Assembly: GCA_016195275.1 (NCBI GenBank)
Contig: JACPZZ010000034.1
Span: forward strand, 1 to 36,138
Direction of reading: 5' to 3'
From: Candidatus Aenigmatarchaeota archaeon
GTDB taxonomy: Archaea > Aenigmatarchaeota > Aenigmatarchaeia > JACPZZ01
DNA length: 36,138 nt
A program made the position numbers and the translations under genes. Shown here in pieces: positions 16,870 to 32,909 of this stretch. Every line of letters begins with the position of its first letter. Within the stretch, counting starts at the first letter, position 1. The notes below the pieces were generated by a model. The model was given only the letters and a program-made list of their open reading frames with translations, was not told where the DNA came from and made no database searches.

Positions 16870-17340
16870 TTACCCGCCCCCGACCTTGCTGGTTATCGTC
16901 GAAATGTCCGTGTTAATTTTCTTTACTTCTATCAGCCAGTTGCGCTTCTCGTCCATTTTTACGTCAGTAGGGATTATCTTGTTGCCGGGATAGTGTATCA
17001 AAAAAAGTTTTCTCGCAGGCTGCGTCTTTACGGTTGCCTTGTCCGCCAACCGGAAAATTTCGCGCGTCGATTCGATGAGCACGTAATTGTTGCCGTTTTC
17101 CTCGGCGATCTTTATTTTGTAAGGGTTGGGCGGCATCACAAAACTGGCCTCGAACTTCGGCGCCATATCCGCTGCGGCATGGAAACCAAACAACGTCTCC
17201 GAAGCCAGCCGTGAATCAAAATTAAAAACAAACTCGCCCATGGCCGCGCCGGCATTGACTATGAATAAAATGCTTAGAAGCAGTATCCCAAGTTCCCCAA
17301 GAAAAATCATGAAATCCCGGGTAATGATTATTCCTTTCAT
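16870..17340 (-). CDS. pilus-locus membrane-anchored protein (156 aa)
   Basis: The start is fixed by an ATGA overlap with the stop of the 923-aa gene. Longer versions of this frame reach back into that gene without merit. N-terminus MKGIIITRDFMIF leads into one TM segment (LGELGILLLSILFIVNAGAA), and a beta-rich domain follows (NYVLIESTREIFRLADKATV; KLFLIHYPGNKIIPTDVKMD). No cysteines. Family unknown. The layout matches the three downstream genes, suggesting a set of minor components. Confidence 0.78.
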   Translation of the reverse strand: MKGIIITRDFMIFLGELGILLLSILFIVNAGAAMGEFVFNFDSRLASETLFGFHAAADMAPKFEASFVMPPNPYKIKIAEENGNNYVLIESTREIFRLADKATVKTQPARKLFLIHYPGNKIIPTDVKMDEKRNWLIEVKKINTDISTITSKVGGG

Positions 17341-20111
17341 CAGCCGCACCCGCACGCGATTTTGTAATCCTCGCCCGTTGTTTTGGATAGTTGCTCTAAC
17401 GTGCATTTGTCCGCGCCGCAGATCAGCCTGTTTTTCTCGGCGTAATCGATACCCGAGCATACAAAATCCCCGGTGCATTGCGCTATGCCGCAGCATGCCT
17501 TTACCGCCAATTTTGCAGCGTCTTTCGGGTTTTTCTCTATGTTGCATTGCAGTATGTTCATATGCTCTTTTCGCAGGGGCTGGAAAGGCCGGAAAGGCCA
17601 GGTTGTATCGTACTCTGTCCAGACTTCTATGGAACTGCACGCCGGCTGCAACAAAAATCCTACAAGAGCAAATTTTCCAAAGTCCGCAATCACAGAGCAC
17701 ACCAAAGACCCGTAGAATCCTGATGCCATCTCATTGAATTTTCCTTCGTCGAAATAGCAGTAATTTGAACGCCCGGGCGTCGGACATTTGTCAACGTCTG
17801 CGATTACAACACCATCCTCCGTTTCGCTCTCGTAAAATTTCATCTCGGCCAGACACGGCGAAACCAGATGGAACCTTGGGTTTTCCTGGAAAGAGAATGC
17901 GCCCACACCTGCGCCCAGCGGTGATGTGGGCCCGTGTCTCTTTAGCTTGAGGTCAACGCTTTTTGATACTACGTACGCTGTTTCATAGTCTTTGATCTGT
18001 TCTTCCGCGACATCGACCTTTTTTTGCTCCACGCCCTTCTGGTTTAAACAAACCGTGTTTGACTCGCATCCTGCGTTTGGGGATTTTAGATAGGAGTATT
18101 TCAGATCATTTTCCACGTCCGACACAACATATCCTTGCATATTCAGTTTCAGGAATTTGGTGGTGCCCTTGGCCTGCCAGCCTCCAAGATCATTGTAGAT
18201 CTGGTATGGCAGGAAATCATATCTATCGTCGGCCATTAACGCCAGCGATTCCGGTTCTCTTTTCCAGGACGCGGATAACATGGAGATTTCAAGCATCTCG
18301 TCTTTGTCTATGAACGGGCTTGCAGGATCTGCAGGGTCCACTTTGATTTTTTTAGCCCTTTTAATTTCAAGCTGCAGATCACGCACTAAACGGTCTGCAT
18401 AATCCGGTATAGAAAGTTTATTGCCGGCTGAATCTATAACATCCTGACCCAACCCGGCGCCTTTTAGCTCATTTAAATAATCTGCCTTGAAAGCTGCTGA
18501 TATCTCCTGTATGTCCTTGCCCGAAGCCCCGCCTTCCAGAAGCCTTTCATAAGCGCCTTTGGATACGCTGGGCACGCCGCCTTGCACGCCTTTTTTCGCT
18601 TCAGTCTCTAGGAAAATAAACATCGATGTGTCTGTCTGCGCCCCTGCCAATATCGCCTTTCCGTCTCTTACAAAAAACTTTTCCACAGCGCCTGCAAACT
18701 GGCCTTCGGTTTCCAGTTGCGTGGTGATTTTAAGGTCGCTAAATTTTTTCTTTATCCCGTCTATTATAGGGGTCGGTTTTCCTGCATCGTCGAAGAATTC
18801 AAGTCTTCTGAAAACATCGGCTGCATTTGTTTTTTTCGAGAACTGTGTTATCCCGCTCTGGTCGAAAAATACGGTTATAGGCCTGTGGGCATAAAGTCCG
18901 TATTTGGCTGCCATCGCCCTTGCGGATGCATCAAACGCTTTGCTGCTCTCGTCCATGGCCTTGCCCACGAGTTCATAGAACCCCTTCTGTTCGCCTTTTG
19001 CAATCTTTTCCTCCGAATCAAGAACGATACGCTTGAAAGTTGTTGTCGCGGTGTCGATTTGCTGGCCACCCGCTATCTCCGCGCCGGAATAAGCAAAGAA
19101 TTTCTGCAAATTTCTTCCCATCTCCTGCTCTTCCTGCGCAGCGCTTTGAAGAAGTCCGCCGGTCCTCTTGCCTGTTTTCGTATCCGGCACGCCGTTGATC
19201 AATTCGTCCAAGTCTGTCCTTTTTCCAGAAGGCACGACAGCCTTTTCGATGAATTTTGCCGGATCGCCTGGATCGACAACCCTGATCGTCCTGACAGCCT
19301 TTTCGATCCCTTCCGCTGTTGTTACATCAACGGTTTCTATTAGCCCGTTATCGGTCATTGCACCCAAAAAACCTATTCCCGTCACCCTGCCAAAAAGTTT
19401 GGGTGACGTCGAACTTGTTATGTACTTTCCCGGTATGCTCAACACGTCCGTGATACGGCTGGCATCCACAATAAACCTGATTGCGGCCTTTGTTTTTGTG
19501 GCAATCGCATCTTCCATGTATTTTATTACTTTCGCACTAATTGTTATCGGCTTTCTCGCAATATCGACCAGTGTTTTTGGCAGGAAAACTGACCCGACTT
19601 TTCCTGCAGCATTTTTAGAAATCTTGGAAGCAAAATCCGTGGTTGTTTTTCCGATCTTTGTTTTTGAAATTACGGATAAAGTCCCGCTGAACATAGAAAG
19701 CCCTATATTGGTGGCGGCAATCTGGGCAAAGTTTTTTGTGAACGGGTAGCTCTCGTCAAACTTGTACGAACCTTCGGCCAGGCCGGTGGGCGATTCGGGA
19801 AAATGCTCCCAGTATATCATATACTCGGGTGTGGAAAAGGCTCTATAATCTACAGGGTTTAAAGTCAGCGGGCTGCCGACTTTGTTCTGGCACAGCATCG
19901 CATACGTCGTGTAAGGGCTGTCCTTGGTGTATGTCCCTGTGACCGCGACAGTCTGCACAGCGTTTTTGATGTTGTTCGCTGTCCTTTTCGCAAGGTCGTC
20001 GCAATAAGGCCCGCCTATCAGCGTGTAAATAAGAAAAGACGTTATAACGAGTATGACTATGCCGGCAAGAAGGAACACCTGGTCCTGCCCGAATCCTTTT
20101 TTCTTCGACAC
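17340..20111 (-). CDS. giant prepilin-like surface protein, 923 aa, ending CGCG
   Basis: The protein starts with GTG and MSKKKGFGQDQV, followed by FLLAGIVILVITSFLIYTLI, a class III signal with likely cleavage after K-G. At 923 residues it is far longer than ordinary pilins, so it may be a tip adhesin or major surface subunit. Most of the body is polar and helical (SAAQEEQEMGRNLQKFFAYS and similar). The last 230 residues carry most of the cysteines (GCESNTVCLN, VSPCLAEM, KACCGIAQCTGDFVCSG, ICGADKCT) and the chain ends KIACGCG. No known domain is recognised. It follows a 206-bp spacer with purine repeats and overlaps the next gene by ATGA. Confidence 0.82.
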   Translation of the reverse strand: MSKKKGFGQDQVFLLAGIVILVITSFLIYTLIGGPYCDDLAKRTANNIKNAVQTVAVTGTYTKDSPYTTYAMLCQNKVGSPLTLNPVDYRAFSTPEYMIYWEHFPESPTGLAEGSYKFDESYPFTKNFAQIAATNIGLSMFSGTLSVISKTKIGKTTTDFASKISKNAAGKVGSVFLPKTLVDIARKPITISAKVIKYMEDAIATKTKAAIRFIVDASRITDVLSIPGKYITSSTSPKLFGRVTGIGFLGAMTDNGLIETVDVTTAEGIEKAVRTIRVVDPGDPAKFIEKAVVPSGKRTDLDELINGVPDTKTGKRTGGLLQSAAQEEQEMGRNLQKFFAYSGAEIAGGQQIDTATTTFKRIVLDSEEKIAKGEQKGFYELVGKAMDESSKAFDASARAMAAKYGLYAHRPITVFFDQSGITQFSKKTNAADVFRRLEFFDDAGKPTPIIDGIKKKFSDLKITTQLETEGQFAGAVEKFFVRDGKAILAGAQTDTSMFIFLETEAKKGVQGGVPSVSKGAYERLLEGGASGKDIQEISAAFKADYLNELKGAGLGQDVIDSAGNKLSIPDYADRLVRDLQLEIKRAKKIKVDPADPASPFIDKDEMLEISMLSASWKREPESLALMADDRYDFLPYQIYNDLGGWQAKGTTKFLKLNMQGYVVSDVENDLKYSYLKSPNAGCESNTVCLNQKGVEQKKVDVAEEQIKDYETAYVVSKSVDLKLKRHGPTSPLGAGVGAFSFQENPRFHLVSPCLAEMKFYESETEDGVVIADVDKCPTPGRSNYCYFDEGKFNEMASGFYGSLVCSVIADFGKFALVGFLLQPACSSIEVWTEYDTTWPFRPFQPLRKEHMNILQCNIEKNPKDAAKLAVKACCGIAQCTGDFVCSGIDYAEKNRLICGADKCTLEQLSKTTGEDYKIACGCG

Positions 20112-20167
20112 GAATAATATTTATCAAGGCCTCTTAATATTGCGCCCCAAACCTGGAATTTGCCAAC

Positions 20168-20293
20168 TTTCCTTTTCCTTTAAAGCTGTCCTGAGTTTTT
20201 CTCTTCCCTTAAGGATTTCCAAGCTTTTACCTCAAGGCTTTCCTGCTTTTCTTTTCCCTTAGGTTTTCCTAAGTTTTTTCTTTTCCCTTAAGG
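20168..20293 (-). repeat. degenerate purine-rich direct repeats upstream of the 923-aa gene
   Basis: On the minus strand five imperfect units of about 25-30 nt share a core like CCTTAAGGGAAAAGAAAA. The core occurs at about 20278-20293, 20249-20263, 20224-20236, 20200-20214 and 20169-20182. The 12-mer TAAGGGAAAAGA also occurs at 23411-23422. The stretch is almost free of C and T runs on the mRNA strand and would be an unstructured, purine-rich leader. Confidence 0.6.
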
Positions 20294-20315
20294 CTTTCTT
20301 TTTTTAAAAAGAAAG
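20294..20315 (-). terminator. U-rich hairpin directly after the 111-aa pilin stop
   Basis: A 10-bp perfect stem (CTTTCTTTTT with AAAAAGAAAG, 2-nt loop) begins 2 nt after the stop at 20318. In the minus-strand transcript the first arm is a U-rich tract, which can act as an archaeal terminator. It matches the elements at 20714-20733 and 23426-23449. Confidence 0.5.
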
Positions 20316-20317
20316 GG

Positions 20318-20653
20318 CTATCCGCAGCCGCAGAAAGTTTTTACTTTGTCCGAGGCAATGCCTATCTTGTCTGCTGCAGACTCAAGGGATATCTGATTTT
20401 TGGCATCGCCGGGTCCGAACGTCGCCCTTAAATTTTCAGGTACAGTGCACATGACTTCATCCGGGTCTGTGCATGTCAGCGGCATGTTCAACTGGCAGCA
20501 GCCTCGCACGAAAGTCTGTTTGCCCAGCTCGCCTGTCGGCTGCTGGCCGCCCAGGATTACAACCCCGACCAGCACAGCCAGCACAATTACAGCAAGAACT
20601 ATGATTACCATTACTTCAACAGCCATCATGCCTTTGGTTTTTATGGACGTCAT
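20318..20653 (-). CDS. class III signal-peptide prepilin-like protein ending CGCG (111 aa)
   Basis: MTSIKTKGMMAVEV leads into MVIIVLAVIVLAVLVGVVIL: a class III signal with cleavage expected after K-G. The mature domain contains GCCQLNMPLTCTDPDEVMC and ends VKTFCGCG, so most cysteines are in two clusters. Identity as a pilin is inferred from the signal and operon. Its mRNA is bracketed by hairpins, one following the upstream 140-aa gene and one directly after its own stop. Confidence 0.8.
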   Translation of the reverse strand: MTSIKTKGMMAVEVMVIIVLAVIVLAVLVGVVILGGQQPTGELGKQTFVRGCCQLNMPLTCTDPDEVMCTVPENLRATFGPGDAKNQISLESAADKIGIASDKVKTFCGCG

Positions 20654-20713
20654 CTGTCTTTCCCCAGTTTCTTTTGGTTAAGCTTTTCTTCTCCTTAATT
20701 TCTTTTGGTTAAG

Positions 20714-20733
20714 CTTTTCTTTTGAAAGAAAAG
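20714..20733 (-). terminator. U-rich hairpin directly after the 140-aa gene stop
   Basis: Arms CCTTTTCTTT and AAAGAAAAG lie 1-2 nt after the stop at 20735. The first arm gives the transcript a U-rich tract. The position and sequence repeat those at 20294-20315 and 23426-23449. Confidence 0.5.
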
Positions 20734-20734
20734 G

Positions 20735-21157
20735 TTATATACATTTCTTTGTGCCAGCATCGCATTTAAGCCCGGCCGAGCATTTGACAGTCAAATCATT
20801 GCACGCAGCCCCTTTGCCGGCAGCGAGTATCCCGCAGCATCTTATGTGGCAGTTCTTCGCATCTGTGATGCCGGCCAGTCCGCATTCCTTCCAGAGTTTT
20901 ATGTTTTCGTCCTTGACTTTGATCCCAACGCCCTGCAGCAAAGTTTTGCATGCCGATTCCTCGTAATCGGCTCCGCATACCTTGTTGTTGCAGCCGAAAT
21001 CTCCTTGGTATGTTGTGCACGCAAATTCCAGCGTCCCGCTTTGTTTAACCGTGTTTATATTGGGTATGATAAAAACAAAAACTATCCCGAGTATCACAGC
21101 CAAAAGAATAATCCCTATCAAAACAACCTGTGCAAGGCTTATCTCGCGTTCCGGCAT
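20735..21157 (-). CDS. Cys-rich pilus-locus protein, pseudopilin-like (140 aa)
   Basis: MPEREISLAQVV leads to a 20-residue hydrophobic segment (LIGIILLAVILGIVFVFIIP). The K-G site of its neighbours is missing (R-E-I-S instead), so it may be uncleaved or use another site. The extracytoplasmic part has about 13 cysteines, including CTTYQGDFGCNNKVCG, CHIRCCG and CSAGLKCDAGTKKCI. Many disulfides are likely. The last motif resembles short Cys-knot or EGF-like tails but no named domain is clear. Confidence 0.78.
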   Translation of the reverse strand: MPEREISLAQVVLIGIILLAVILGIVFVFIIPNINTVKQSGTLEFACTTYQGDFGCNNKVCGADYEESACKTLLQGVGIKVKDENIKLWKECGLAGITDAKNCHIRCCGILAAGKGAACNDLTVKCSAGLKCDAGTKKCI

Positions 21158-21211
21158 TCAAAACAAATTGACTATGGATTTTAGAAAATATAAATGATAG
21201 CCAGCCGTTTG

Positions 21212-21406
21212 CTAACATCCGACTCTCAGCCCTTTCATCAGGTCGCAAAGCGCATCCCCTATCATAGGGATCGCATTTAATGCGGCCGGCTTCCCCGCCA
21301 CGACAACAAGGAAAACGCCGGCTCCCAGTATTATCAGCAGACCGGCAACAATAAGCGCGAGCAGCAGAACCTTGTCGCTCACCTGCCCCTTACTGGCATT
21401 TCCCAT
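21212..21406 (-). CDS. small class III prepilin-like protein (64 aa)
   Basis: MGNASKGQVSDKV is followed by LLLALIVAGLLIILGAGVFL. K-G-Q at the signal boundary is the classic class III cleavage context, with cleavage between G and Q. The mature peptide is about 57 residues with two cysteines near the end (DALCDLMKGLRVGC). The start overlaps the 3' end of the preceding 112-aa gene by 17 nt, indicating translational coupling. Its small size suits a major or minor fibre subunit. Confidence 0.75.
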   Translation of the reverse strand: MGNASKGQVSDKVLLLALIVAGLLIILGAGVFLVVVAGKPAALNAIPMIGDALCDLMKGLRVGC

Positions 21407-21728
21407 AGTTCGTACCCCTTATGTCAGACACGCACCTTTTTCCGGGTGCGCAGTCTTCATTATTTTCAATGCCTTTCCACGCCCTGCACCCGCATTCGTT
21501 TTTCCCTTCATACGTGTATACGCAGGCCTCGTTATCTGTCTGCCCGCAAAAATCGCTTTTTGCAAGGCAGCCAGCCTGTGATGTTAATTTATTCCTCTCC
21601 CTTTCAACATTTTCTCCGCTGCCCTTTATCCAGCCTAAATAAAGCGCCATAAGCACAAGCGCGATAATCAGCGCCATCAGCAGCGCAAGATTGTATTCGG
21701 CTATCCCCTTTCTATTTTGAGGCTTCAT
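21390..21728 (-). CDS. class III prepilin-like Cys-rich protein (112 aa)
   Basis: MKPQNRKGIAEYN is followed by LALLMALIIALVLMALYLGW. Cleavage is expected after K-G, with E at +3, as in class III signals. The mature part has eight or more cysteines (GCLAKSDFCGQ, EACVY, NECGCRAW, EDCAPGKRCVSD, KCQ). The CAPGKRCV pattern resembles small disulfide-rich extracellular domains. It overlaps the start of the next gene. Confidence 0.8.
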   Translation of the reverse strand: MKPQNRKGIAEYNLALLMALIIALVLMALYLGWIKGSGENVERERNKLTSQAGCLAKSDFCGQTDNEACVYTYEGKNECGCRAWKGIENNEDCAPGKRCVSDIRGTNYGKCQ

Positions 21729-21784
21729 AGGATTATTTTCATTCTCGTTCGATTAAGCTTTTCCATTTGCTTAGTTAACAGAGA

Positions 21785-23368
21785 TCAGTCTTTCACGAAC
21801 GAGTTAAGTGCCGCATCCGCAGGTGCACAAATGGTCGCATCCGGTGGGCTGACCGATGTTAGTACAGCACTGTAAGACCCGTCCCCTTCAAATTTCTCGT
21901 TCAAGCCGGGCGGGCCGTCCTGGTATATCGTAGTCTTCAGCTTGTCCCCATTGGTTATGAAAATGTTGTCATAATATACTGTATAGGTTCCTTTGTCGTT
22001 AAGCTCCGATGCCAGCATGAAATTTGTTATTTTTTTGTCTAGCCTGTCCTCAGGCACTATCATGACTCTGTGATACCATTTGTTTAACACCAGGTTCTCA
22101 CCGAACTTCTGTGTTTCCATGCACTTGGGATGGCCGCTAATCAGGTTCTGGTCGCGCCATTTGTTCCCGTTTCCTTTGACTGCGCCACTAACTCTATCAC
22201 AGTCCGTAGCAATATCCTTCCATCGTTTTCCGGAGTCGTCTAGTATGTCTATCCCTCCTATCTCTTTTGCGCTGGATACTACGCACACGTCGTATTCTAC
22301 TGTGTCGCCGGCTATGAATATGTAATTGTTCAATGGTACAGGGCTTCCAGTCTTCCAAAATATATTGTTTTTCCCGTCCGGGTTAATTGCTACAAACTTC
22401 AGCGCGTCCGTGCCATGGACACGATAATCAGGCACGGACGTCAGGCCAGCGATGTTTACCAATTCAAGCCGCTCGTTTTCATAGCCGCCGCTTCTATCCA
22501 AATCGGCCGGGGATTTTAACAGAGCATCTTCGTAGATAATTTTTCCCACATCTGCTGCATTTTTGCAATTTACAAATCTGACATTGTCGAAATACGCTAT
22601 TATTGGGGCCTTCGACAGCTTGTCCTGTTCAAAAACCAGCCTGACCAACTCAACGCCCTTGCCGACCATTGTTTTATCGGGATCCGGATCCTCAAACACG
22701 GGTATTTTCCTGCGATGCCATGTCCTGTACGCATAATCTGATATGTCCTCGTTATCAGAGTGTATATCCTTGGATTTACGCATTGACGCTTTCTGGCCGT
22801 TTATATCCTTCCATTTGTCTTCATTCCACCACTGTTTTCCTCCTGGCTGGGTTTTTATATCGATCCCGCCGATCCCGCTTGCATCAGAGGATATCCATAT
22901 ATCATACTCGAGACAGTCCCCCGGACGTATGCTATAGGTCGCCGCAGCATCTTCATAGATTACATAATATACGTCTCCCGGCGAATCCGGAACTGCGTAT
23001 AATCTTAGCACATTGCCCGCCGGGTTTGGCCCCAACGCATCGCATACAACATCCGCGGTACACTCACCCAATCCAGGATCATCGTCCGGATCGGCGGTAG
23101 CTTTGCATCTTTGTTTCTGTGGGCAGTTTCTTGCTTTATTCTCGCATAATCCGCCGCATACGCCTATCTGGTCGATCGGGTTCGGGTTGTCTTTGCTGTC
23201 CTCAGGTATGATCTTGTTTAACCATGGGACCTTGTTTAAAAAATCCTTAAAAGCGCCTGTTGTGTTTAACCCGACAATGACGCCAAGAACAACCAGCAGC
23301 ACGACAACGCCCAGCGCCAGCCCAAGAACATGCGCGTCCATCCCTTTTCTTTTTTTATTAAGCTTCAT
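21785..23368 (-). CDS. prepilin-like surface protein with two tandem beta-sandwich repeats (527 aa)
   Basis: MKLNKKRKGMDAHV with hydrophobic LGLALGVVVLLVVLGVIVGL gives a class III signal. Residues about 65-115 form a Cys-rich spacer (GVCGGLCENKARNCPQKQRC). Two related domains follow. Domain 1 (about 118-270) has GDCLEYDIWISSDASGIGGI, a W-K-D-I motif, WHRRKIPV and YFDNVRFVN. Domain 2 (about 300-475) has GDTVEYDVCVVSSAKEIGGI, RWKDIATD, WYHRVMIVP and YYDNIFITNG. These look like carbohydrate-binding or galactose-binding-like jelly rolls, suggesting an adhesin. ATG 23368 is chosen; the longer frame starts at a TTG (23404) with no signal-like context. Confidence 0.82.
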   Translation of the reverse strand: MKLNKKRKGMDAHVLGLALGVVVLLVVLGVIVGLNTTGAFKDFLNKVPWLNKIIPEDSKDNPNPIDQIGVCGGLCENKARNCPQKQRCKATADPDDDPGLGECTADVVCDALGPNPAGNVLRLYAVPDSPGDVYYVIYEDAAATYSIRPGDCLEYDIWISSDASGIGGIDIKTQPGGKQWWNEDKWKDINGQKASMRKSKDIHSDNEDISDYAYRTWHRRKIPVFEDPDPDKTMVGKGVELVRLVFEQDKLSKAPIIAYFDNVRFVNCKNAADVGKIIYEDALLKSPADLDRSGGYENERLELVNIAGLTSVPDYRVHGTDALKFVAINPDGKNNIFWKTGSPVPLNNYIFIAGDTVEYDVCVVSSAKEIGGIDILDDSGKRWKDIATDCDRVSGAVKGNGNKWRDQNLISGHPKCMETQKFGENLVLNKWYHRVMIVPEDRLDKKITNFMLASELNDKGTYTVYYDNIFITNGDKLKTTIYQDGPPGLNEKFEGDGSYSAVLTSVSPPDATICAPADAALNSFVKD

Positions 23369-23425
23369 TTTCACTCTCTCAATTATTACATTTCTTTTGT
23401 TCAAATGTTTTCTTTTCCCTTAAAG

Positions 23426-23449
23426 CTTTTCTTTTTTTAAAAAGAAAAG
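23426..23449 (-). terminator. U-rich hairpin directly after the 75-aa pilin stop
   Basis: An 11-bp stem (CTTTTCTTTTT with AAAAAGAAAAG, 2-nt loop) starts 2 nt after the stop codon at 23452. It is followed by the purine core TAAGGGAAAAGA. It may be a leaky terminator or RNA stability element between a small pilin and a larger minor component. Confidence 0.5.
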
Positions 23450-23451
23450 GC

Positions 23452-23679
23452 TTATATGTTGCAGATTGCCGACCCAAACCCGCCCATTGACGTCGCTAAA
23501 AAACCGCAAATGCCTTTGCCTATCGTAATTCCCAACCCGCCCGACCCGGACTCTTCGTTCGCAAACGCTATGACAACAATTAAAACTATTAACGCCACGA
23601 AAATCGCTCCGATAACCACGAGCATCGTGGTCGTTATGCCCTTGGCAGTTTCTTTCCCTTGAAAGTTTGAAAGGTTCAT
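23452..23679 (-). CDS. small class III prepilin-like protein (75 aa)
   Basis: MNLSNFQGKETAKGITTT leads into MLVVIGAIFVALIVLIVVIA, with cleavage expected after K-G. The mature chain is glycine-rich with two cysteines (GKGICGFLATSMGGFGSAIC). ATG 23679 lies 4 nt after a strong Shine-Dalgarno sequence (GAGGTGA on the minus strand, 23684-23690), so it is preferred to the TTG at 23682. A TnpB relic begins just upstream of that Shine-Dalgarno site and separates this gene from the 77-aa pilin gene. Confidence 0.8.
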   Translation of the reverse strand: MNLSNFQGKETAKGITTTMLVVIGAIFVALIVLIVVIAFANEESGSGGLGITIGKGICGFLATSMGGFGSAICNI

Positions 23680-23693
23680 CAATTCACCTCAAG

Positions 23694-24160
23694 GATACCC
23701 ACGCCATTCGTTGGTGGGAGTAATTGAGCATATTGGAATACTGCAACCGAAATGTTTAAAACTTGACGTACATGATTATAACTATTTTGGGCAGAGTAAC
23801 AATAAATGTCAAAGTTCCTCACGATAAGATAATTTTGAAAAAATACAAGGTTATTCAAAGGGGTTGCCTTGTGGTTTATGTCAATCCGCAATACACAAGC
23901 CAAACATGCCGAATCTGCAACGAAATCGGGACAAGAACCAAAGGATTTTTCAAGTGCGATTCCTGCGGATATTCCTGCAACGCCGATTTGAACGCCTCTT
24001 TCAATATCAAAAATAGGGTCAAGCCACTGGCTATAACCTTCGGGCTGCATGTAAACCAGTCTATCGTAGCGGACTCCGGTGGAATTTGCGATGTTTTCCA
24101 ACATTGTGAATCTCCTAGTTCAGTTGCAATGCCCACACACTTTAGTTGTGGGTAAGTTTA
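23694..24160 (+). pseudogene. TnpB remnant (C-terminal zinc ribbon) plus two right-end hairpins inside the pilus operon
   Basis: Antisense to the operon, the frame from 23763 encodes VVYVNPQYTSQTCRICNEIG and then FKCDSCGYSCNADLNASFNI. This is the TnpB zinc ribbon (CxxC...CxxC) plus the D-N-A-S RuvC-III motif. About 40 residues of degraded sequence precede it, and the first two RuvC motifs are missing. A right-end hairpin (CCCACAC...GTGTGGG-like, TTTAGTT loop) closes it at 24130-24157. A second, solo right-end-like hairpin (CCCACGCC, then TTGGTGGGAG) lies at 23698-23721. The element splits the operon between two prepilin genes and now touches the stop codon of the 77-aa gene. Confidence 0.8.
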
Positions 24161-24391
24161 CTTAACCAATCCTGCCGTGCGGCTGTATAACCATATGGAA
24201 GCCTTTAACGGGAAACAAACAGCCTTATCGAACAAACCGCCGCCCACATCACAAACATCCGGTATATTCGCTCCAGACGAAATGCTTTGCAGCGCAAATG
24301 CGACAGCGATTACGACACCCAAAACTATTAATGCCAGTATGCCAAGGAACAGCGTCTTTGCCGATTCAGCTTCTATCTGGCCTTTCAACAT
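24158..24391 (-). CDS. class III prepilin-like protein (77 aa)
   Basis: MLKGQIEAESAKT followed by LFLGILALIVLGVVIAVAFA matches the class III prepilin signal (K-G-Q, E at +5). Two cysteines (DVCDVGGGLFDKAVC) may pair. ATG 24391 follows an AAGGTGA Shine-Dalgarno sequence by 4 nt. The in-frame GTG at 24397 is part of that site and is rejected. The stop codon coincides with the junction of the TnpB relic. Confidence 0.8.
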   Translation of the reverse strand: MLKGQIEAESAKTLFLGILALIVLGVVIAVAFALQSISSGANIPDVCDVGGGLFDKAVCFPLKASIWLYSRTAGLVK

Positions 24392-24404
24392 TTTCACCTT
24401 GTCA

Positions 24405-24833
24405 TTATTTCTGTTTGACTTCTACCTCTATTAGGGTAGCCCCGCTCTTTAACGATATTATAACATCGTAAGTATTTTTACCGGCGATTATCGTGCCGCC
24501 CTTGTACTGCCAGACAATATCTTTGCACTCCGTATCTGCAAGCTTGGCGATGATTTCGTTTTGGCCTACGGAACCGGATGTGGATTTATACTGCGACGTG
24601 CTTTCAAAGCCTGTTTTAAAGCTGCTCCTTGACTGCCAGAGCGCGCACATGCCGTACGCTACCCTTGTTGCTAAAACATCTGCATTATCAACGTACAAAT
24701 CTACTGTTTCCGGCAGCTGGTTGAATATTACCAATCGTGGAAGGATCAGCATGGCCACATTGTAAAACGCAAAAATTATGATAAACGCGGCCACAAGCCA
24801 GAACAAAAACCTCGGCTGTTCAGCAGCAGCCAT
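24405..24833 (-). CDS. pilus-locus membrane-anchored protein (142 aa)
   Basis: Unrecognised family. MAAAEQPRFLFW opens a TM segment (LVAAFIIIFAFYNVAMLILP), then an extracytoplasmic beta-rich domain ends TYDVIISLKSGATLIEVEVK. Two cysteines (MCALW, ECKDI) are present. There is no K-G site. It begins within TAATG of the platform protein's stop, so its translation is coupled to the platform gene. A minor pseudopilin or assembly factor is plausible. Confidence 0.78.
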   Translation of the reverse strand: MAAAEQPRFLFWLVAAFIIIFAFYNVAMLILPRLVIFNQLPETVDLYVDNADVLATRVAYGMCALWQSRSSFKTGFESTSQYKSTSGSVGQNEIIAKLADTECKDIVWQYKGGTIIAGKNTYDVIISLKSGATLIEVEVKQK

Positions 24834-26893
24834 TACACCCCTCCGATTATCGTGCTCTGTATCTGCGTTCCGAGCGTAGAATAAATCGCAACTATTGCAA
24901 GCACGTAAACCACCAAAGACACAAACATGTTAATGGATAGTGTGCGGTAAAAGTTTATCTTGTCCTCGCCTGTTTCGATTTTGCTCACGAAATACGACAA
25001 CAGGCCCGCGATTTCGATCATGTAAATCCCGACAACCAATTGGAACATCTCGGCTGTCACGCCGCCTTTGTCAAGCCCTATTGTCAAAAACATCGGTAAG
25101 CTTGTGCCGCCGCCCTGTTGAGTTATGTCGGCTAATTTTTCTCCGAGAACTTTGATTATGTCAAGCATTATTAGAGCCATCGTGACTGTTACGCCCGCGA
25201 CCATCGGCGCCAGTATAGCGCCCAAAAATTTCATGCTCGTCGTGCTCTCGCCCAATATGTCGCGTAATTCTTCCTCAATTGAATGCACGTCCTTCAGGTA
25301 TCGCGCAATGGACAGCATGCACTGTGAAGCGTTGTAAACGCCCTTGCGTACGGCTTCAACAACGACTTTCATGACCGAAATTATCAGACTCGAAGGGTAG
25401 TACCAGACAGCGCCGTAATTCTTGTCAAATATCGCCTGATCAAAGGTCATTCCCATTCTTTTTATATTTTGTACGATCCGGCCGAAGAAATCCGATATGC
25501 TCAGATCTTTTATTTTATCCTGGTTCTTGTCGATGGCATTTTCGATAGGCGTGCCCGATGAAAGCTGATTGCCTAAATGGAAAATCGCTTCCGCAAACTC
25601 ATTTTCAACGCTTATCACTTTTTTCCGCACGCTCGTCCTCTGGAAGCTTTCCAGATACGCGTAGAGGGAAATCGAAAGGGAGATGGACGAAATGATTAAA
25701 GCCGAATACATTACCCGTTCAAAAGAACTTTCCGCCCCGGTCATTCCGTTATACCCGACAAAGAAAAGCGCTGCAAAAAGCATTGCTGAAGGTATCACGG
25801 TTCTTATTTCAAATTTTTTGCCGAACAAATGCGCACGAAAATGGCCTTCTTTAGGCGTGTCCGGATGTTTCGAGACATCCGGTTTGGAAAGCGTGGGCGG
25901 TTTCGTTGCCAACACGTTTGAGGTGTACCAATACAATCCCAAAAACAGCAGTACGTCGTATCCCAGGAAAAGCATGTACGGCTGGACGACGTTGGATAAA
26001 AACAGGACTAAAACAGGAAACATGACAAGCCCCATTATCGGAAGCAGGATTCCCATAGCGTGTATGATCAACAATGGCATGCGCAAATTCTGCGCGTAGT
26101 GGCTCATCCTTTCTTTCGTGCCTTTCAGTATGACGTCAACCGCTTCATCGAGCATCGCTAACCGCTTTTTCTCGGGCTGGTCTATTGAATTGCGTATCAG
26201 CGTCAACGCTGAGGAAAATTCTTCGTTATTGTTTTTCCATCGGGCGTCTATGTACGTGCCTAATGCCTTATCTATGCTCTCCTCCTTGCGCATGTAAATG
26301 TCCCACAGCAGTTTGCGAAAATCCAATGCCAGCGGCCCGTTAAGGTTTGTTGCAACGAATTTCACCGCATTCTCAAGGTTCGGCGAAATTCGCATCGAGA
26401 TGACCATGTAGACTATTGATAAGACAATCTCCTCCGAGGCTTTCACGCGGAAATCGCGCGCCTTCTTGGACGGGTATTTGTAAATGTACACGCCCGCGAT
26501 TACGGAAAACAAAAGCATGGTAAGCGCGGCAAAAATCGGCAAGAACAGGAAGCCCGCAATCGATATTATTATCAGTATTATCGAAGACAAAAACGCAGCC
26601 GATGTCACCCCGGCAGGTGTGCATTGCATGTTTGTGAAGTCAATCTCTTTGCGCAACTGCTCTGTAGAGCCCTTCGAAGGCTCGACTTTCAGAACTTTCT
26701 GTGCAACAGCGCAAAGCCTTTCATAAATTGACAGGGATTTTTTTGATCCCCGTTCCTCTGTCCTGAAAACCTTGTAGTCCAAAGAAAGGAAATGTTCGTC
26801 TTCTTTTTTCGATTCCTCGTCCTCGAAAATCCTGGGCTGGTAATCGCGCGCTATTCTTTTCAGTTCCTCTTCGTCAATTTTCCTGTCATCCAT
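24833..26893 (-). CDS. TadC/GspF-like membrane platform protein with two T2SSF domains
   Basis: The 686-aa protein is the inner-membrane scaffold of archaeal type IV pilus/Tad systems. A polar N-terminus of about 110 residues precedes two TM segments. Next comes a first T2SSF-like helical domain (ASEEIVLSIVYMVISMRISP; NLENAVKFVATN) and more TM segments, then a second T2SSF domain (FAEAIFHLGNQLSSGTPIEN; DVHSIEEELRDILGE) and C-terminal TM segments (VVGIYMIEIAGLLSYF; MFVSLVVYVLAIVAIYS). Tandem T2SSF domains are usual for archaeal FlaJ/TadC proteins. It starts 4 nt after the ATPase stop and overlaps the next gene (TAATG). Confidence 0.9.
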   Translation of the reverse strand: MDDRKIDEEELKRIARDYQPRIFEDEESKKEDEHFLSLDYKVFRTEERGSKKSLSIYERLCAVAQKVLKVEPSKGSTEQLRKEIDFTNMQCTPAGVTSAAFLSSIILIIISIAGFLFLPIFAALTMLLFSVIAGVYIYKYPSKKARDFRVKASEEIVLSIVYMVISMRISPNLENAVKFVATNLNGPLALDFRKLLWDIYMRKEESIDKALGTYIDARWKNNNEEFSSALTLIRNSIDQPEKKRLAMLDEAVDVILKGTKERMSHYAQNLRMPLLIIHAMGILLPIMGLVMFPVLVLFLSNVVQPYMLFLGYDVLLFLGLYWYTSNVLATKPPTLSKPDVSKHPDTPKEGHFRAHLFGKKFEIRTVIPSAMLFAALFFVGYNGMTGAESSFERVMYSALIISSISLSISLYAYLESFQRTSVRKKVISVENEFAEAIFHLGNQLSSGTPIENAIDKNQDKIKDLSISDFFGRIVQNIKRMGMTFDQAIFDKNYGAVWYYPSSLIISVMKVVVEAVRKGVYNASQCMLSIARYLKDVHSIEEELRDILGESTTSMKFLGAILAPMVAGVTVTMALIMLDIIKVLGEKLADITQQGGGTSLPMFLTIGLDKGGVTAEMFQLVVGIYMIEIAGLLSYFVSKIETGEDKINFYRTLSINMFVSLVVYVLAIVAIYSTLGTQIQSTIIGGV

Positions 26894-26897
26894 CGTA

Positions 26898-29800
26898 TCA
26901 CAAAACCCTTGCGGTCATGCGCGGCATTTGTTCTTTTATCCTTGAAGAAAACCATTTGTCCCAGCGGGAAAATATCTCCTTCGGATCGAGATAACCAGTC
27001 TCTTCCTTCAACCTCGATGAAATGATATGGAACTGTTCGTTGGACGCCGTCACCCACGGCGCCTCTATGATCTCGGGTAAGTTAAATTTGACAGAATAAC
27101 CGACCATTGATTTTTTGATGTTCGCCCTCAACTGAATGTTTTCCCACACATCCTCCCATTTGCCTTCCCACTCCCTCGTTAGCGATGCTATGCGGTTGAT
27201 TATTTCCGACTCGCCTGTTGAAAGGATCTCAGTCGGCTTTAAAGAATCTGCCGCGGCAGAATATTCCATCAAATTCACAAAACCTTTCTCCTCATAAGGG
27301 TCGTTTTTCCAGTGTTTCCTTACCTCTGTCAGATCCGTGACCCGGCGGAATTTGTGCAAGCCGTCCGCGGAGCGCAACATTTTAGATATTACAATTATGT
27401 CCGTGGCTTTGAAGCTCGTTGACGGCACCCCTAAATCATTTACAACACGGTCGTATACGCCGTAAGGCGATTCGCCGTGGATTGTCCCTGCTACAACATT
27501 GGATAAAGCGCCTATTCTCATTGCCTCATAGAGTGCGCGAGCTTCTGTGTTGTGCAGCAAAATGCCACCAAAACCGCCGACAAAGTTCTGGGTTGGGTTT
27601 ACGGAAAGGTCGTAAACGTATTCTGGTTCCTCTAATACCATTTCTTCTATTTCTTTTACTTCGTCCAAGAAGAAGTTGCCATTTACAAACGTCCTAATGA
27701 AATCATCCGCGTCGGTTTCAGGGTCTTCTACGATTTTTCTTAGATAATCCAAACTGCATTTCTTTAGCCTTCTAAGATGCCTGTATTTTCTTGTCAGTTT
27801 AAGATGTTTTTCCAGTTCTTTCGGGTCAAAATCCACACTGTTAAATTTGGAATGCGAGAATGATTTTGTGTGCGGTTTTTTATCTTTGTTTACAAATCCA
27901 ACCAATGATAAAAATTTTCTGACTTCTTCCAGCTTTTTGAACTCGACTGTATATATTGGATTTTTCGATCTTGAGTTTGTTTGCTGGCGAACTCTTGCTA
28001 CTATACCTAAACAAAGCAACAAATACATAACATCTTCTGCCAGCTTTTTTGAAGTTGTATGATACCGTATAGAATTTCCTGACTGCTTGCTAATCGTGAA
28101 AGATCCGTCCCCGCTGTATAAGCCTCTTAAGAAGGAGCAAATTTTTTCTAACGACAACCCATAAATGATCGGTGGTATCCTTTTGTTTTCCGCATACTTA
28201 CCGCATTCCAATTTGTCTATCAATGTTGCTAAAGGCACACTCTGGATCTTTATTTGTTTGGATACGCCCCACCCAAGCGTTTCTCTTACATATGGTTCAA
28301 TACCGAACAGGCTGTTTGAGAGCGAAATTACGTCATTGACTATGGCATCATTGTTGTTGGAGATCGACACGTTACCCTTGCCAACCCACCCATCAGAAAC
28401 TATATAGCCCAAAAACCTGCAGAAATCCGCATTTATAGGCAACTTCGCCGGTATTGTATTGCTTGTGCCGGATTTGATCCTTATAGTACTGATATCAGGT
28501 TCAACGTTAGCGCAACCCAGCAGAGATGTAAACGAGTTTACAGGAAGGTTTGTTTTCTGGGTAGTTAACAGATAGTGGTATATGTCCTTTGTGTTGCAAA
28601 CCTCGCTTGACTTTTTCCAACCGAGAACTTTAATCGCGCGCCTTATCTGGTCTTCTGCGTTGGAAACCCGCAATTCCGGGAGCATTTCCGTCGCGTCAAT
28701 ATGTTCCACGTCATTGTAGCCGTACGGTATAACCGAAGGTATAATTATCTTGTCGCCGACTTTCAGGTCCCTGCACTCTATCGGCGCTATCCTAAAATTC
28801 TGTGCCGTGAAAAGGCTGTGATCGTGTGTTACGGTGACCTCTCTGCCTGTTTTCGTTTTTATTTTCAATAATTTGTCCCTCTTCGGATGCTTAACAAAGC
28901 CAGAAAGTCTTGACAATCCGAATTTAAGATCGGGCCCGATAGTCGGTACTAATATACCTTCGGTTGGTTTACCTTCCAAATCCTTGATCTGAATTCTTTT
29001 TGCTTCTCCGCTTTCCACTATGAAAACTTCCTCGTTTCCGCGTATAGAACTTCGCACTTCACCCACAATCAAACTTGAATCGCCCAATCTCAATGCAGTG
29101 CGCAACGCCTCGTCAGCGGCCATCTCTGTTTCAACGTGCGTTATAACAGAGCGCGATTTCAACCGCTCAATGTTGTAACCTATTTTTCTCATGTAATCGA
29201 CGGCAAGTTCAATAGTATCTTCGACGGTTAGGATTCGCTTGTTCGGCGAGATCTCAAGCATCAGGGCGTTTAACAATGAAGTGTTGCTTACAATAACCCC
29301 ATTAGCTACAAAGTTGTGACTTGGTTCCACTGTCAAATCATAAACAAAGCCGTCTTTATCTTCAACTTGCTCCACTGTTTTTACTTCGTCCCAGTATATG
29401 TCCGACTCCGCAAGAAGCTTTAATTTTTCTATCTTTTTTGCCGCCTCTTCCGAATTGGCATCTTTCCACACGCCTTCTACGAATCCGATGATTTTTGCGA
29501 TATTTTCCGGCCTGTGTCGTGTATGGTAAATATATCTTCTGTTAGAAATGCTCACACCCGTAGATTTTTCGATACGCTCTGTTTCGATATTGAGTAATTT
29601 TATTATTTCGTAAAGTTCTTTCGACGGGGCTTCTGTTTTTATCAAACTTGCCATATTTTCGTAATTGGAAATTTTATGTGCTATTTGATCTATGTTATTA
29701 TTCCATTGCTCAGAATAACCCGTTAACAGGTTTTGTATAGAACCTCTATGGACAGTTAACGTCGGTTTTGCGTAGAAGTGGTGCTTTATCGTGGTTGTTG

Positions 29801-32800
29801 GTATTCCCAACTCTCTGGACATATATTCGTAACTCAACGGTAAATCAGTTTGAACAAAATTCTCCATGCTTCCATCAAACCGGTTTGCACGCTCTTTGAT
29901 AAGTTTTATACACGCATTACAAAATAATTTTGTTGCATTAAGGTCTTCAAATGTCTGATTAAAATGAGAGCTTACCACGCCTCTGGGCAAACCGCTTTCC
30001 CTTGCTATATCCCCCTGAGAAATACCAAGGATTTTTGTGCATTCTATGAGATCTTTAACCAGCATTTTTGCGGCGTTATACCCTATGGCAAAGTCTTTAA
30101 TCTCGACTATGTTATTTTCAACGCCCCCAAGCTCTTTTTTACGTTCCTCGATTATTTTTATCAGGTTAAATAACTTTCTTCTGCTTAAGCCCCATTTTTT
30201 GCCGGCGTAGATGTCTGGTCTGAACAGTTTCCTTTTGTCCCTCGTAAACTCAATCCTAAGTTTTTTTACCAGGTCTGTTGCCATCGCCTCGGCAGGGATA
30301 AGATCGTATCCGTAATGTTTCCATTTCCTATCTACTAATTCGGATAGCCTGGCTTTTTTTTCAGGGTGATTATACCCCACTTCGTTGAATTTTGCCGCAT
30401 TTTCTTCGCTGACAATCAACCTGTAGTATGTTTTGATCGCCACGTTTTTTTCATAAACGGACGATATGATTCCGAATCTTAAAAGTAACGATTGCATTTG
30501 ATTTACCATGGCTTTGCTGGCGGTAGAAAATTCTATCTCTCTCCGTGAGTTACTAACGCCGGAGTCGCAATCGAAATAAGATCTTATGAAAGATTTTATC
30601 AGATCTTTGGGAAGCTTAAGAAACCTGCCTTTCAACTCCAGTATGCTAGCTTTCCTCCCTGCCGGGATCCCGATGTTTCGTAGAAACCTCACAATTTCCC
30701 GATTGTGTATCCTTGCCTTGGTTATCTTCCCGTATCTGTTTGAATATTCCTCTTTCGCGTCCAAGCCGAATATTTTTTTCGAAAGGTCTACAAAAATTTT
30801 CCTGAGCTGGCAGTTTGTATTATGGAAACTTACGCCGGATTTTTCTATGGAACCGTCCCCATAAACATAGCCCAAAAAACTCATGAAATCTCTGTTTAAT
30901 TTGGGAAGTTTTACTGGCTTGGAACTGGTCCGCCCCTTGAACTCTATCTGATCGAATTCAAATTCGTTTTTTGAGGCCAGTTTTTTGAAAAGTTTCGCCT
31001 TGATTACCTTGGACCTTATTTTTCTGATCGCCTGCAGATCTTCGTCATCGGCACTAAGATTTCCTGTTTTATTCAGGATGGATTTCTTCGGTAGATTTAT
31101 GTAAGAATCGTCCGGGATGTCGGATATTGTAAATTCGTCGATATTCGTATCTTCTATGCTGATGTATCTGGGTGTGGCTATCATCATACTGGGTTTTATT
31201 TCGTCTGCGCGTATTTTTGAAAATTCGCTTTCTGACAGACAAAAATACGGATGTTCCTGCGTTGTTAACACCGTCTTGCCTTTCTTGGTCTTTATTTTTA
31301 TCAGCTTTTTGTCATTCGGCCTTTTCCATACAGCCGTAACTTTAGTTCTTTCTAATTTCATTCTATCGTTTAATGCCAGCAACTCAATGCCTTCCGGCAG
31401 GCATATCTGGTCGTTTCCTATTTTCATCGGTCGATTGATTTTGAATTCGTTGTCCACTATAACCTTTATCGGCACGATGTTTCCATCTGCAAGCTGAACC
31501 AACGTGTCACCGCTTAGGCACTTGCCGCTGCCGCGTCCACCTGCCACGAGCATGCTTGAAGACCCGTCTACCAAAAAACTCATTACGCCGGCGAATAACG
31601 GGTCTATCATCCCTGATTTTATGAATAACGGAAGCGTCCACGGTCTGTCTCTGTGTCTACGGAATGCAAACGCCAGCCCTTCCGGAGACAATGTCTTTGT
31701 TATCGCAGCGACTCTCGCCCGCCCGCCCGGCACGTTTATGTCCGTGTCCAAAACAGGGTTCGCTTCGTCCAAAGGTCTGCCCGAAGCTATCCTGAATCTT
31801 GTCGCCCACGATTCGGCGTCGTCTTTTGTAGGAATGAGGTTTGTAGAGCATTCGTTATAGTCTGAATGGTTTATGTAAATCGGGTTTTGCCCGATAGGCG
31901 AGTTGATGTAAATGTCCTGTATCTTTTCGTCGGCTAAAAGTATTTCCAGTACGCCAAAACCTGCTGTGTATCTTGTAAGGACCTTGGTTATATTTTCGAT
32001 TTCCATTGGATTCAAAAAAATTCCCATGTTCGTTGACAAGTCGCGTATCATGTCGCGGCCGATGTTGTAGAATATTTCGCGCGCGCGTTCCGGTTCCGAG
32101 AACTCGGTTTCAACAGGCTTGTGCTCTCCCATGTAGCGCCGCGCGGCGTCGAGCAGCATGTATTTGTCCTCTGTTAACTGGAATTCCGGAGGGATGACAT
32201 GGTAGACTAATTCGGATTTCGTCGGTATCCGGTAAATTTCAACCTCTATATCGCCCACTTTGTAACGGTCTATGGCCTGCCCGTCCTTTGGGGTTGTGGA
32301 CATGAACCGGGTTAACATGAAGTTAGGCCGTATGGTCGGGTGGAAAATCTCGCGGTAAAGCGTCCTGTCCCCTATGTGATAGCCGGCTATATTGTCCTTT
32401 ACCATTTGTATGAGCGCCGTCGATTCCAAAATCCTTTGTATCGGCGCCAGCGCGTTATTTGCATAATGCGCGTAGCATTGTATATGGTAAGGGTTTTTCT
32501 TGGCCTCGATTTTTACCTTCCTTATCTCGCGCAAAATCTCTGCATAAGCGCCTATGGGGTCGCGCCTCATTAAGTCGATGACAATACGCTGCAAATTGTG
32601 GCTTCGTTCAGCTGTGTGGCGGTCGCAGTTCGGTATTGAGATGTTCGTGACTGTTAGCAATCTCCTTCCACGGACGATCTCGTCAAGCGCATTGGCAATC
32701 TCAACCAACAGCCGGGTTTGCTCCCAGTCGTATTCGTATTCGCGCGTTTCGGCAAGGACAATACGGGAAACTTTCTTGACTTCGGCTATCTTGTCTATTG

Positions 32801-32909
32801 CCGCGGCCATTATAGCCTCGAAGTCCTCAAGGCTTGAGCCGTATAAAGTTCCCAAGGTGTTTAACCTTATTGAATTGTCCTCCGGGTTGTACTCGAACTG
32901 TAAAGCCAT
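26898..32909 (-). CDS. type II/IV secretion (PilT/TadA/GspE-like) ATPase interrupted by two inteins
   Basis: The frame of 2003 codons encodes a pilus-assembly ATPase with two in-frame inteins. The exteins (1-463, 1210-1287, 1788-2003) sum to 757 residues. Extein 1 holds a long N-domain and the secretion-ATPase N-terminal region (YTAGFGVLEILLADEKIQDI; INVPGGRARVAA), ending at Walker A GGRGSGK, with T-S-L after intein 1. Extein 2 has ILTVEDTIEL (Asp box) and the Walker B region SSLIVGEVRS. Extein 3 starts TEARALYEAMRIGALS and has the His box AGTIHGESP. It drives pilin assembly with the TadC-like protein encoded next. ATG 32909 is supported by a TATA-like box in the divergent spacer. Activity requires both inteins to splice. 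Confidence 0.93.
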   Translation of the reverse strand: MALQFEYNPEDNSIRLNTLGTLYGSSLEDFEAIMAAAIDKIAEVKKVSRIVLAETREYEYDWEQTRLLVEIANALDEIVRGRRLLTVTNISIPNCDRHTAERSHNLQRIVIDLMRRDPIGAYAEILREIRKVKIEAKKNPYHIQCYAHYANNALAPIQRILESTALIQMVKDNIAGYHIGDRTLYREIFHPTIRPNFMLTRFMSTTPKDGQAIDRYKVGDIEVEIYRIPTKSELVYHVIPPEFQLTEDKYMLLDAARRYMGEHKPVETEFSEPERAREIFYNIGRDMIRDLSTNMGIFLNPMEIENITKVLTRYTAGFGVLEILLADEKIQDIYINSPIGQNPIYINHSDYNECSTNLIPTKDDAESWATRFRIASGRPLDEANPVLDTDINVPGGRARVAAITKTLSPEGLAFAFRRHRDRPWTLPLFIKSGMIDPLFAGVMSFLVDGSSSMLVAGGRGSGKCLSGDTLVQLADGNIVPIKVIVDNEFKINRPMKIGNDQICLPEGIELLALNDRMKLERTKVTAVWKRPNDKKLIKIKTKKGKTVLTTQEHPYFCLSESEFSKIRADEIKPSMMIATPRYISIEDTNIDEFTISDIPDDSYINLPKKSILNKTGNLSADDEDLQAIRKIRSKVIKAKLFKKLASKNEFEFDQIEFKGRTSSKPVKLPKLNRDFMSFLGYVYGDGSIEKSGVSFHNTNCQLRKIFVDLSKKIFGLDAKEEYSNRYGKITKARIHNREIVRFLRNIGIPAGRKASILELKGRFLKLPKDLIKSFIRSYFDCDSGVSNSRREIEFSTASKAMVNQMQSLLLRFGIISSVYEKNVAIKTYYRLIVSEENAAKFNEVGYNHPEKKARLSELVDRKWKHYGYDLIPAEAMATDLVKKLRIEFTRDKRKLFRPDIYAGKKWGLSRRKLFNLIKIIEERKKELGGVENNIVEIKDFAIGYNAAKMLVKDLIECTKILGISQGDIARESGLPRGVVSSHFNQTFEDLNATKLFCNACIKLIKERANRFDGSMENFVQTDLPLSYEYMSRELGIPTTTIKHHFYAKPTLTVHRGSIQNLLTGYSEQWNNNIDQIAHKISNYENMASLIKTEAPSKELYEIIKLLNIETERIEKSTGVSISNRRYIYHTRHRPENIAKIIGFVEGVWKDANSEEAAKKIEKLKLLAESDIYWDEVKTVEQVEDKDGFVYDLTVEPSHNFVANGVIVSNTSLLNALMLEISPNKRILTVEDTIELAVDYMRKIGYNIERLKSRSVITHVETEMAADEALRTALRLGDSSLIVGEVRSSIRGNEEVFIVESGEAKRIQIKDLEGKPTEGILVPTIGPDLKFGLSRLSGFVKHPKRDKLLKIKTKTGREVTVTHDHSLFTAQNFRIAPIECRDLKVGDKIIIPSVIPYGYNDVEHIDATEMLPELRVSNAEDQIRRAIKVLGWKKSSEVCNTKDIYHYLLTTQKTNLPVNSFTSLLGCANVEPDISTIRIKSGTSNTIPAKLPINADFCRFLGYIVSDGWVGKGNVSISNNNDAIVNDVISLSNSLFGIEPYVRETLGWGVSKQIKIQSVPLATLIDKLECGKYAENKRIPPIIYGLSLEKICSFLRGLYSGDGSFTISKQSGNSIRYHTTSKKLAEDVMYLLLCLGIVARVRQQTNSRSKNPIYTVEFKKLEEVRKFLSLVGFVNKDKKPHTKSFSHSKFNSVDFDPKELEKHLKLTRKYRHLRRLKKCSLDYLRKIVEDPETDADDFIRTFVNGNFFLDEVKEIEEMVLEEPEYVYDLSVNPTQNFVGGFGGILLHNTEARALYEAMRIGALSNVVAGTIHGESPYGVYDRVVNDLGVPSTSFKATDIIVISKMLRSADGLHKFRRVTDLTEVRKHWKNDPYEEKGFVNLMEYSAAADSLKPTEILSTGESEIINRIASLTREWEGKWEDVWENIQLRANIKKSMVGYSVKFNLPEIIEAPWVTASNEQFHIISSRLKEETGYLDPKEIFSRWDKWFSSRIKEQMPRMTARVL
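27549..29048 (-). other. intein 2 (500 aa, LAGLIDADG) after Walker B of the pilus ATPase
   Basis: The intein runs from SIRGNEEVFIVESG (Ser1 nucleophile) to ILLHN and is followed by Thr+1 of the extein. Block B is GREVTVTHDHSLF. Endonuclease motifs are CRFLGYIVSDGWVG and SFLRGLYSGDGSF, with SKKLAEDVMYLLLCLGI as the usual following helix. Block F reads VYDLSVNPTQNFVGG, with Gln where the usual block-F His would be. The penultimate His-Asn is intact. Removing it restores IVGEVRS-TEARALYEAM, the conserved post-Walker-B sequence of archaeal secretion ATPases. Confidence 0.92.
29283..31520 (-). other. intein 1 (746 aa, LAGLIDADG plus HTH region) in Walker A of the pilus ATPase
   Basis: The intein runs from Cys1 (CLSGDTLVQLADG) to VIVSN and interrupts GGRGSGK-TSLLN. 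Block B is GKTVLTTQEHPYF (about 81-93). LAGLIDADG motifs are SFLGYVYGDGSI (214-225) and SFIRSYFDCDSGV (310-322). Residues about 440-700 are extra and contain helix-turn-helix-like stretches (ILGISQGDIARESGLPRGVV; YMSRELGIPTTTIKHHF). Block F VYDLTVEPSHNFVANG keeps its His, but the residue before the last Asn is Ser instead of His. At 746 aa it is unusually long for an intein. Confidence 0.92.

Follow-up and report, generated by a model that had tools for sequence, protein, structure and literature searches.

The window (the whole stretch of 36,138 nucleotides analysed here) is contig C6 of a groundwater archaeon of the Candidatus Aenigmatarchaeota (DPANN), whose draft genome (G000) comprises 1.07 Mb in 34 contigs and is 83% complete, with an estimated contamination of 0.25%. 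It contains the gene for a secretion/pilus ATPase precursor in which two inteins separate three exteins (Table 1). Searches against Pfam place two Intein_splicing and two LAGLIDADG_3 stretches within a T2SSE ATPase (E 5e-48, 8e-47, 9e-9). All four extein-intein junctions keep the frame exactly, and the GC content of the inteins (0.40 and 0.41) is lower than that of the exteins (0.47-0.50). When joined, the exteins give a protein of 757 aa that is co-linear with the intact orthologues of congeners (single frames of 757-761 aa) and holds the motifs of TadA/GspE/FlaI secretion ATPases, namely Walker A, the VEDT Asp box and the GEVR Walker B. The sequence-only reading had proposed two complete inteins, the first within Walker A and the second immediately after Walker B, and a mature ATPase of 757 aa after removal of both; the Pfam matches, the boundaries and the empty genes of the congeners confirm this. 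The comparison with secretion ATPases that it had suggested agrees as well, as the intein-free congener protein matches the solved structures of GspE (2OAP), CpaF (8RKD) and FlaI (4II7) with E values of 3e-29 to 2e-17. Because of these matches, and because the next gene encodes a conserved T2SSF-like membrane protein, we infer that the two form an archaeal pilus or secretion motor pair. Further downstream (17340-24833, minus strand) lies a group of ORFs, most of them without a Pfam match, that may encode pilins and surface proteins belonging to this machine.

Table 1. The intein-containing ATPase gene and its downstream partner (positions in the window)
Feature	Position	Strand	Evidence
Secretion/pilus ATPase precursor, 2003 aa, with two inteins (whole ORF)	26898..32909	-	ORF calls and Pfam
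N-extein, residues 1-463, C-terminal end at Walker A (...GGRGSGK)	31521..32909	-	92-93% identity to the intein-free congeners G001-G004
Intein 1, residues 464-1209, 746 aa	29283..31520	-	Class 1 residues, LAGLIDADG endonuclease
Middle extein, residues 1210-1287 (TSLLNAL...VEDT...GEVRS)	29049..29282	-	
Intein 2, residues 1288-1787, 500 aa	27549..29048	-	Class 1 residues, LAGLIDADG endonuclease
C-extein, residues 1788-2003 and stop (TEARALYEAMR...)	26898..27548	-	
T2SSF/TadC-FlaJ-like membrane protein, downstream partner of the ATPase	24833..26893	-	Weak T2SSF match (E 0.0019); neighbour of the ATPase in four congeners

Both inteins carry the residue set of class 1: Cys1 (CLSGDT), TQEH, VYDL, a terminal Ser-Asn (...VSN) and Thr at +1 in intein 1, and Ser1 (SIRGNE), THDH, VYDL, a terminal His-Asn (...LHN) and Thr at +1 in intein 2. 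Class 2 (KlbA) identity, which requires Ala1 with Cys+1, is ruled out for either by the combinations Cys1/Thr+1 and Ser1/Thr+1. The penultimate His, usual but not required, is absent from intein 1, which has Ser instead, and is present in the alleles of this intein in genomes G099 and G122. About 5% of functional inteins are reported to do without this His (PMC4031507); because of the Ser, splicing of intein 1 may be slow or impaired. The acidic residues of both LAGLIDADG motifs are present in both inteins. Beside its endonuclease, intein 1 has about 300 aa of extra sequence with one weak match to HTH_24 (E 0.03), and its single-sequence AlphaFold model reached a mean pLDDT of 34.8 and a pTM of 0.24, values too low for the model to be of any use.

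The two insertion sites lie 78 codons apart: in the numbering of the mature protein, intein 1 separates Lys463 from Thr464 (GSGK-TS, the hyphen marking the insertion point) and intein 2 follows Ser541 (GEVRS-TEAR). In an alignment of 56 intein-free sequences, consisting of 55 orthologues and the joined window protein, the Lys at site 1 never varies and is followed at position 464 by Thr or Ser, while at site 2 the G, E, R and S are the same throughout and the V is V or I. The +1 residue of site 2 varies (K 18, T 14, V 9, L 7, R 6, others), and the residue after intein 2 therefore lies outside the invariant ATP-site motif. It had been stated beforehand that differing flanks in intein-free relatives would count against the finding. 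At site 1 the flanks of the congeners do not differ (GSGK-TS in 4/4); at site 2 a single residue does, GEVRS being followed by Thr in one congener and by Leu in three. The finding stands, for all that the difference at site 2 reveals is that intein 2 requires a nucleophile in that position. As for the claim that the unspliced forms cannot be active, the precursor interrupted at Walker A is likely to be inactive by the precedent of Pyrococcus horikoshii RadA, in which a P-loop intein is reported to disrupt ATPase function (PMC6195587).

The four congeners (G001-G004) carry the same gene without an insertion at either site, in the same gene order and with the T2SSF-like neighbour kept. A DNA tree of five tips pairs G000 with the intein-free G001 (support 97/98), while its one other inner branch is weak. 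This pairing favours the view that each intein was gained once, on the branch leading to G000, which would take fewer steps than repeated losses.

To view the sites across the phylum, ATPase orthologues were collected from 71 of 79 relatives and from 138 of 156 Aenigmatarchaeota genomes; 90 of the 138 were judged by sequence (the window, 70 others, G099 and G122, and 17 more), and 48 were judged intein-free by open-frame length alone (721-803 aa). The Walker A site is occupied in three (G000, G099, G122), the GEVRS (Walker B) site in six (G000, G015, G056, G081, G139, G099), and a further site, ED-T, in 13, such that 19 of the 138 orthologues have at least one intein, three have two, and 119 are intein-free. 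At its own site, intein 2 has alleles with 51-58% identity in G015, G081, G139 and G056. The pair of Walker A and Walker B inteins recurs in G099, which belongs to another family; there intein 2 is split over contigs C76 and C100, and the pair is deduced from two contig ends matching residues 1-317 and 376-500. The ED-T site of the ATPase holds a mini-intein of 167 aa in G091 (L246:395-3154) and inteins of about 510 aa in other genomes.

In an intein tree of 61 rows, all six Walker B-site rows lie on one side of a branch with support 93, the 13 ED-T inteins lie on one side of a branch with support of only 31, and the two inteins of the window fall in different parts. Inteins of a paralogous ATPase group with the main ATPase intein at the same site, as found for Walker B (G099) and ED-T (G000). 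The tree leaves out the Hef intein of G113 (C-end not found), L219, L232, L199, the ED-T intein of G110 (a stretch of N inside), ATPase intein 2 of G099 (two contigs) and the ED-T intein of the G099 paralogue. Each window intein belongs to its own site-specific family, and the sites, empty in the close relatives G001-G004 and occupied in distant genomes, display the pattern of homing inteins.

The genome as a whole is rich in such elements: 23 inteins were found in 17 genes within about 1.07 Mb, exceeding the figure of "up to 19" that one 2021 paper quotes. They are located on contigs C1, C6, C11, C14, C15, C17, C23, C24, C26, C27, C30 and C31 (L007, L049-L062), and their hosts are rpoA'', EF-2, Hel308, NrdJ (three inteins), inositol-phosphate synthase, Top6B (two), MetK, RadA (two), Cdc48, eIF2-gamma, a HerA-like ATPase, IleRS, aRF1, SMC, PEP synthase and two pilus ATPases (two each); host names are from Pfam, with Hel308, NrdJ and PEP synthase deduced from Pfam domains and the HerA-like ATPase our own reading. 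The second, paralogous pilus ATPase (L007:2558-8125, plus strand, contig C15) has one intein located upstream of Walker A, with Asp as its last residue (FVHD-T), and another at IED-T. NrdJ intein b (L051:1727-7831, plus strand) is followed by Ile (ATC) at +1, not by Cys, Ser or Thr, which makes its splicing doubtful. On contig C2 (L063:183-6028 and L066), the 23S rRNA gene is extended to 5.8 kb and the 16S rRNA gene is interrupted; this contig also carries LAGLIDADG ORFs.

Aenigmatarchaeota is a strikingly intein-rich phylum, with an Intein_splicing match (E 1e-5) in 96 of the 156 genomes, and the domain matches in G015 (39) are similar in number to those in G000 (37). Among the 19 carriers of an intein in the ATPase, the three genomes with double occupancy rank highest in intein-domain candidates (43, 38 and 38). 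Across the 138 orthologues, doubles were seen three times against about 0.95 expected under independence, and the Walker A and Walker B pair twice against 0.13 expected (hypergeometric P 0.005, phylogeny ignored). This excess of the pair fits the genome load and would also fit selection for the pair.

Five inteins of G000 are inserted exactly at GK-T/S (in the pilus ATPase, HerA-like ATPase, SMC, EF-2 and eIF2-gamma), and across the 156 genomes intein 1 has its strongest relatives at Walker A sites of the pilus ATPase and of other NTPases. The idea that one intein lineage has spread among P-loops within the genome was rejected, since a tree built from the 23 inteins of G000 shows no clustering of the P-loop label (5 changes against a shuffled mean of 4.7). 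The label changes 3 times against a shuffled mean of 15.7 in the 61-row tree, but this value is biased, because its outside rows had been picked for their relationship to intein 1 or 2 or for being same-site alleles.

We consider it highly probable that the window holds two independently acquired class 1 homing inteins, situated at classic NTPase landing sites and removed by self-splicing. Two unrelated inteins would have entered the same gene for an archaeal type IV pilus/secretion ATPase, one landing at GSGK-T, where the invariant lysine of Walker A meets the threonine that binds Mg, and the other at GEVRS-T, directly after Walker B. Each would excise itself through an acyl shift at Cys1 or Ser1, transesterification at Thr+1 and Asn cyclisation, leaving a normal 757-aa ATPase, and the endonucleases would carry the inteins, as alleles, to the same site in copies that lack them. 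A very high intein load at a gene offering several landing sites would then account for the twin state. The analysis shows the anatomy, the empty sites, the same-site families, the recurrence of the pair and the intein load; that splicing and homing really occur is what we infer.

Because four near relatives lack both inteins and the genome is unusually intein-rich, the pair looks like an ordinary mobile-element invasion, not an evolved switch. The sequence-only reading had suggested such a post-translational switch. In this view, put more fully, conditional splicing of one or both inteins (responding to redox, temperature, ATP or host contact) would gate pilus assembly after translation. Both inserts do lie within the ATP site, the penultimate Ser of intein 1 is rare, and precedents have been described: one of the two inteins of Mycobacterium smegmatis DnaB, that in the P-loop, is reported to be slow and stress-responsive (PMC6195587), and splicing of the RadA P-loop intein is reported to be conditional. 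The switch is nonetheless improbable and the suggestion is not supported, given that all four congeners use the syntenic gene without inteins, as do most orthologues in the phylum by sequence or open-frame length. Both window inteins keep their endonucleases and the catalytic acids, whereas the responsive DnaB intein is described as lacking an endonuclease (PMC6195587). Alleles at the same sites occur in other families, as is usual for mobile elements, twin copies in this ATPase are confined to intein-loaded genomes, and double occupancy tracks the genome-wide load.

It is still less probable that the gene is dead or stalled, with one intein no longer splicing and the ATPase lost in this lineage. 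The penultimate Ser of intein 1 could be read this way, and the NrdJ intein without a +1 nucleophile occurs in the same genome; yet the frame is open throughout, all other splice residues are present and the syntenic partner membrane protein is intact. The exteins are also constrained as in the congeners: in pairs with G000, dN is 0.05-0.07 against a near-saturated dS of 1.6 to 2.2 (one pair undefined), a rough ratio of about 0.03 that nevertheless shows purifying selection. The least credible explanation is an assembly artefact that joined inteins of another organism into the ATPase gene; the draft state of the genome allows for it, but it is contradicted by the exact frame at the four junctions, the allele pair at the same sites in G099, the 21 further inteins on 11 other contigs and the low contamination.

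The intein pair, read as two homing elements, is in itself ordinary intein biology; it marks a DPANN phylum that is heavily loaded with inteins, in which close genomes with empty and filled sites make it possible to test how inteins are gained and lost and what they cost. The ATPase, for its part, is a family of hosts in which three or more sites around a single ATP pocket are occupied. A bolder combination of claims would be that in Aenigmatarchaeota the ATP site of archaeal pilus ATPases serves again and again as a landing place for pairs of inteins, with Walker A and Walker B inteins together above chance, and that intein 1, spliced slowly with Ser in place of the penultimate His, gates pilus assembly, the genome being among the most intein-dense known from any cell. 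Taken together these claims are unlikely to hold, the gating of pilus assembly being a possible effect. Among the papers listed by our literature searches we recognized none treating inteins in Aenigmatarchaeota; one search listed 15 of its 18 papers, and the word intein occurs in none of the 15.

Several known systems resemble parts of this arrangement. The KlbA intein of Methanocaldococcus jannaschii also resides in a pilus/secretion-type ATPase, at a site that presumably differs from that of intein 1. Its structure (2JMZ) is of an intein with the same penultimate Ser as intein 1, but one described as a class 2 mini-intein with Ala1 and Cys+1 instead of Cys1 and Thr+1 (PMC4031507). The M. 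smegmatis DnaB protein, like the window ATPase, has two inteins in one ATPase with one in the P-loop; there, however, the P-loop intein is described as a class 3 mini-intein without an endonuclease and the other lies in a DNA-binding loop (PMC6195587), whereas both inteins here are of class 1 with endonucleases and interrupt a secretion ATPase, one at Walker A and the other after Walker B. The mycobacteriophage TerL1-a intein occupies the same position as intein 1: it separates the invariant Lys of Walker A from the Thr, an insertion termed "classic" for P-loops, and the rarer TerL1 sites reported include Walker B, as for intein 2 (PMC5050341); the host is a different protein, a phage terminase, and the likeness is one of insertion site. 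The haloarchaeal MCM-a and MCM-d inteins are, like the window pair, neighbouring endonuclease inteins in one NTPase, with MCM-a after the Walker A Lys, although their host is the MCM helicase (PMC10643990). That 2023 study reports gain and loss of these inteins among lineages, their frequency being taken to argue against a switch function in MCM, and its survey lists no multi-intein gene and one single-intein gene in two DPANN genomes (PMC10643990). Neighbouring endonucleases are also reported to interfere with homing (PMC10643990), and because the two sites of the window ATPase are so close together, the same interference might apply to its pair of inteins.
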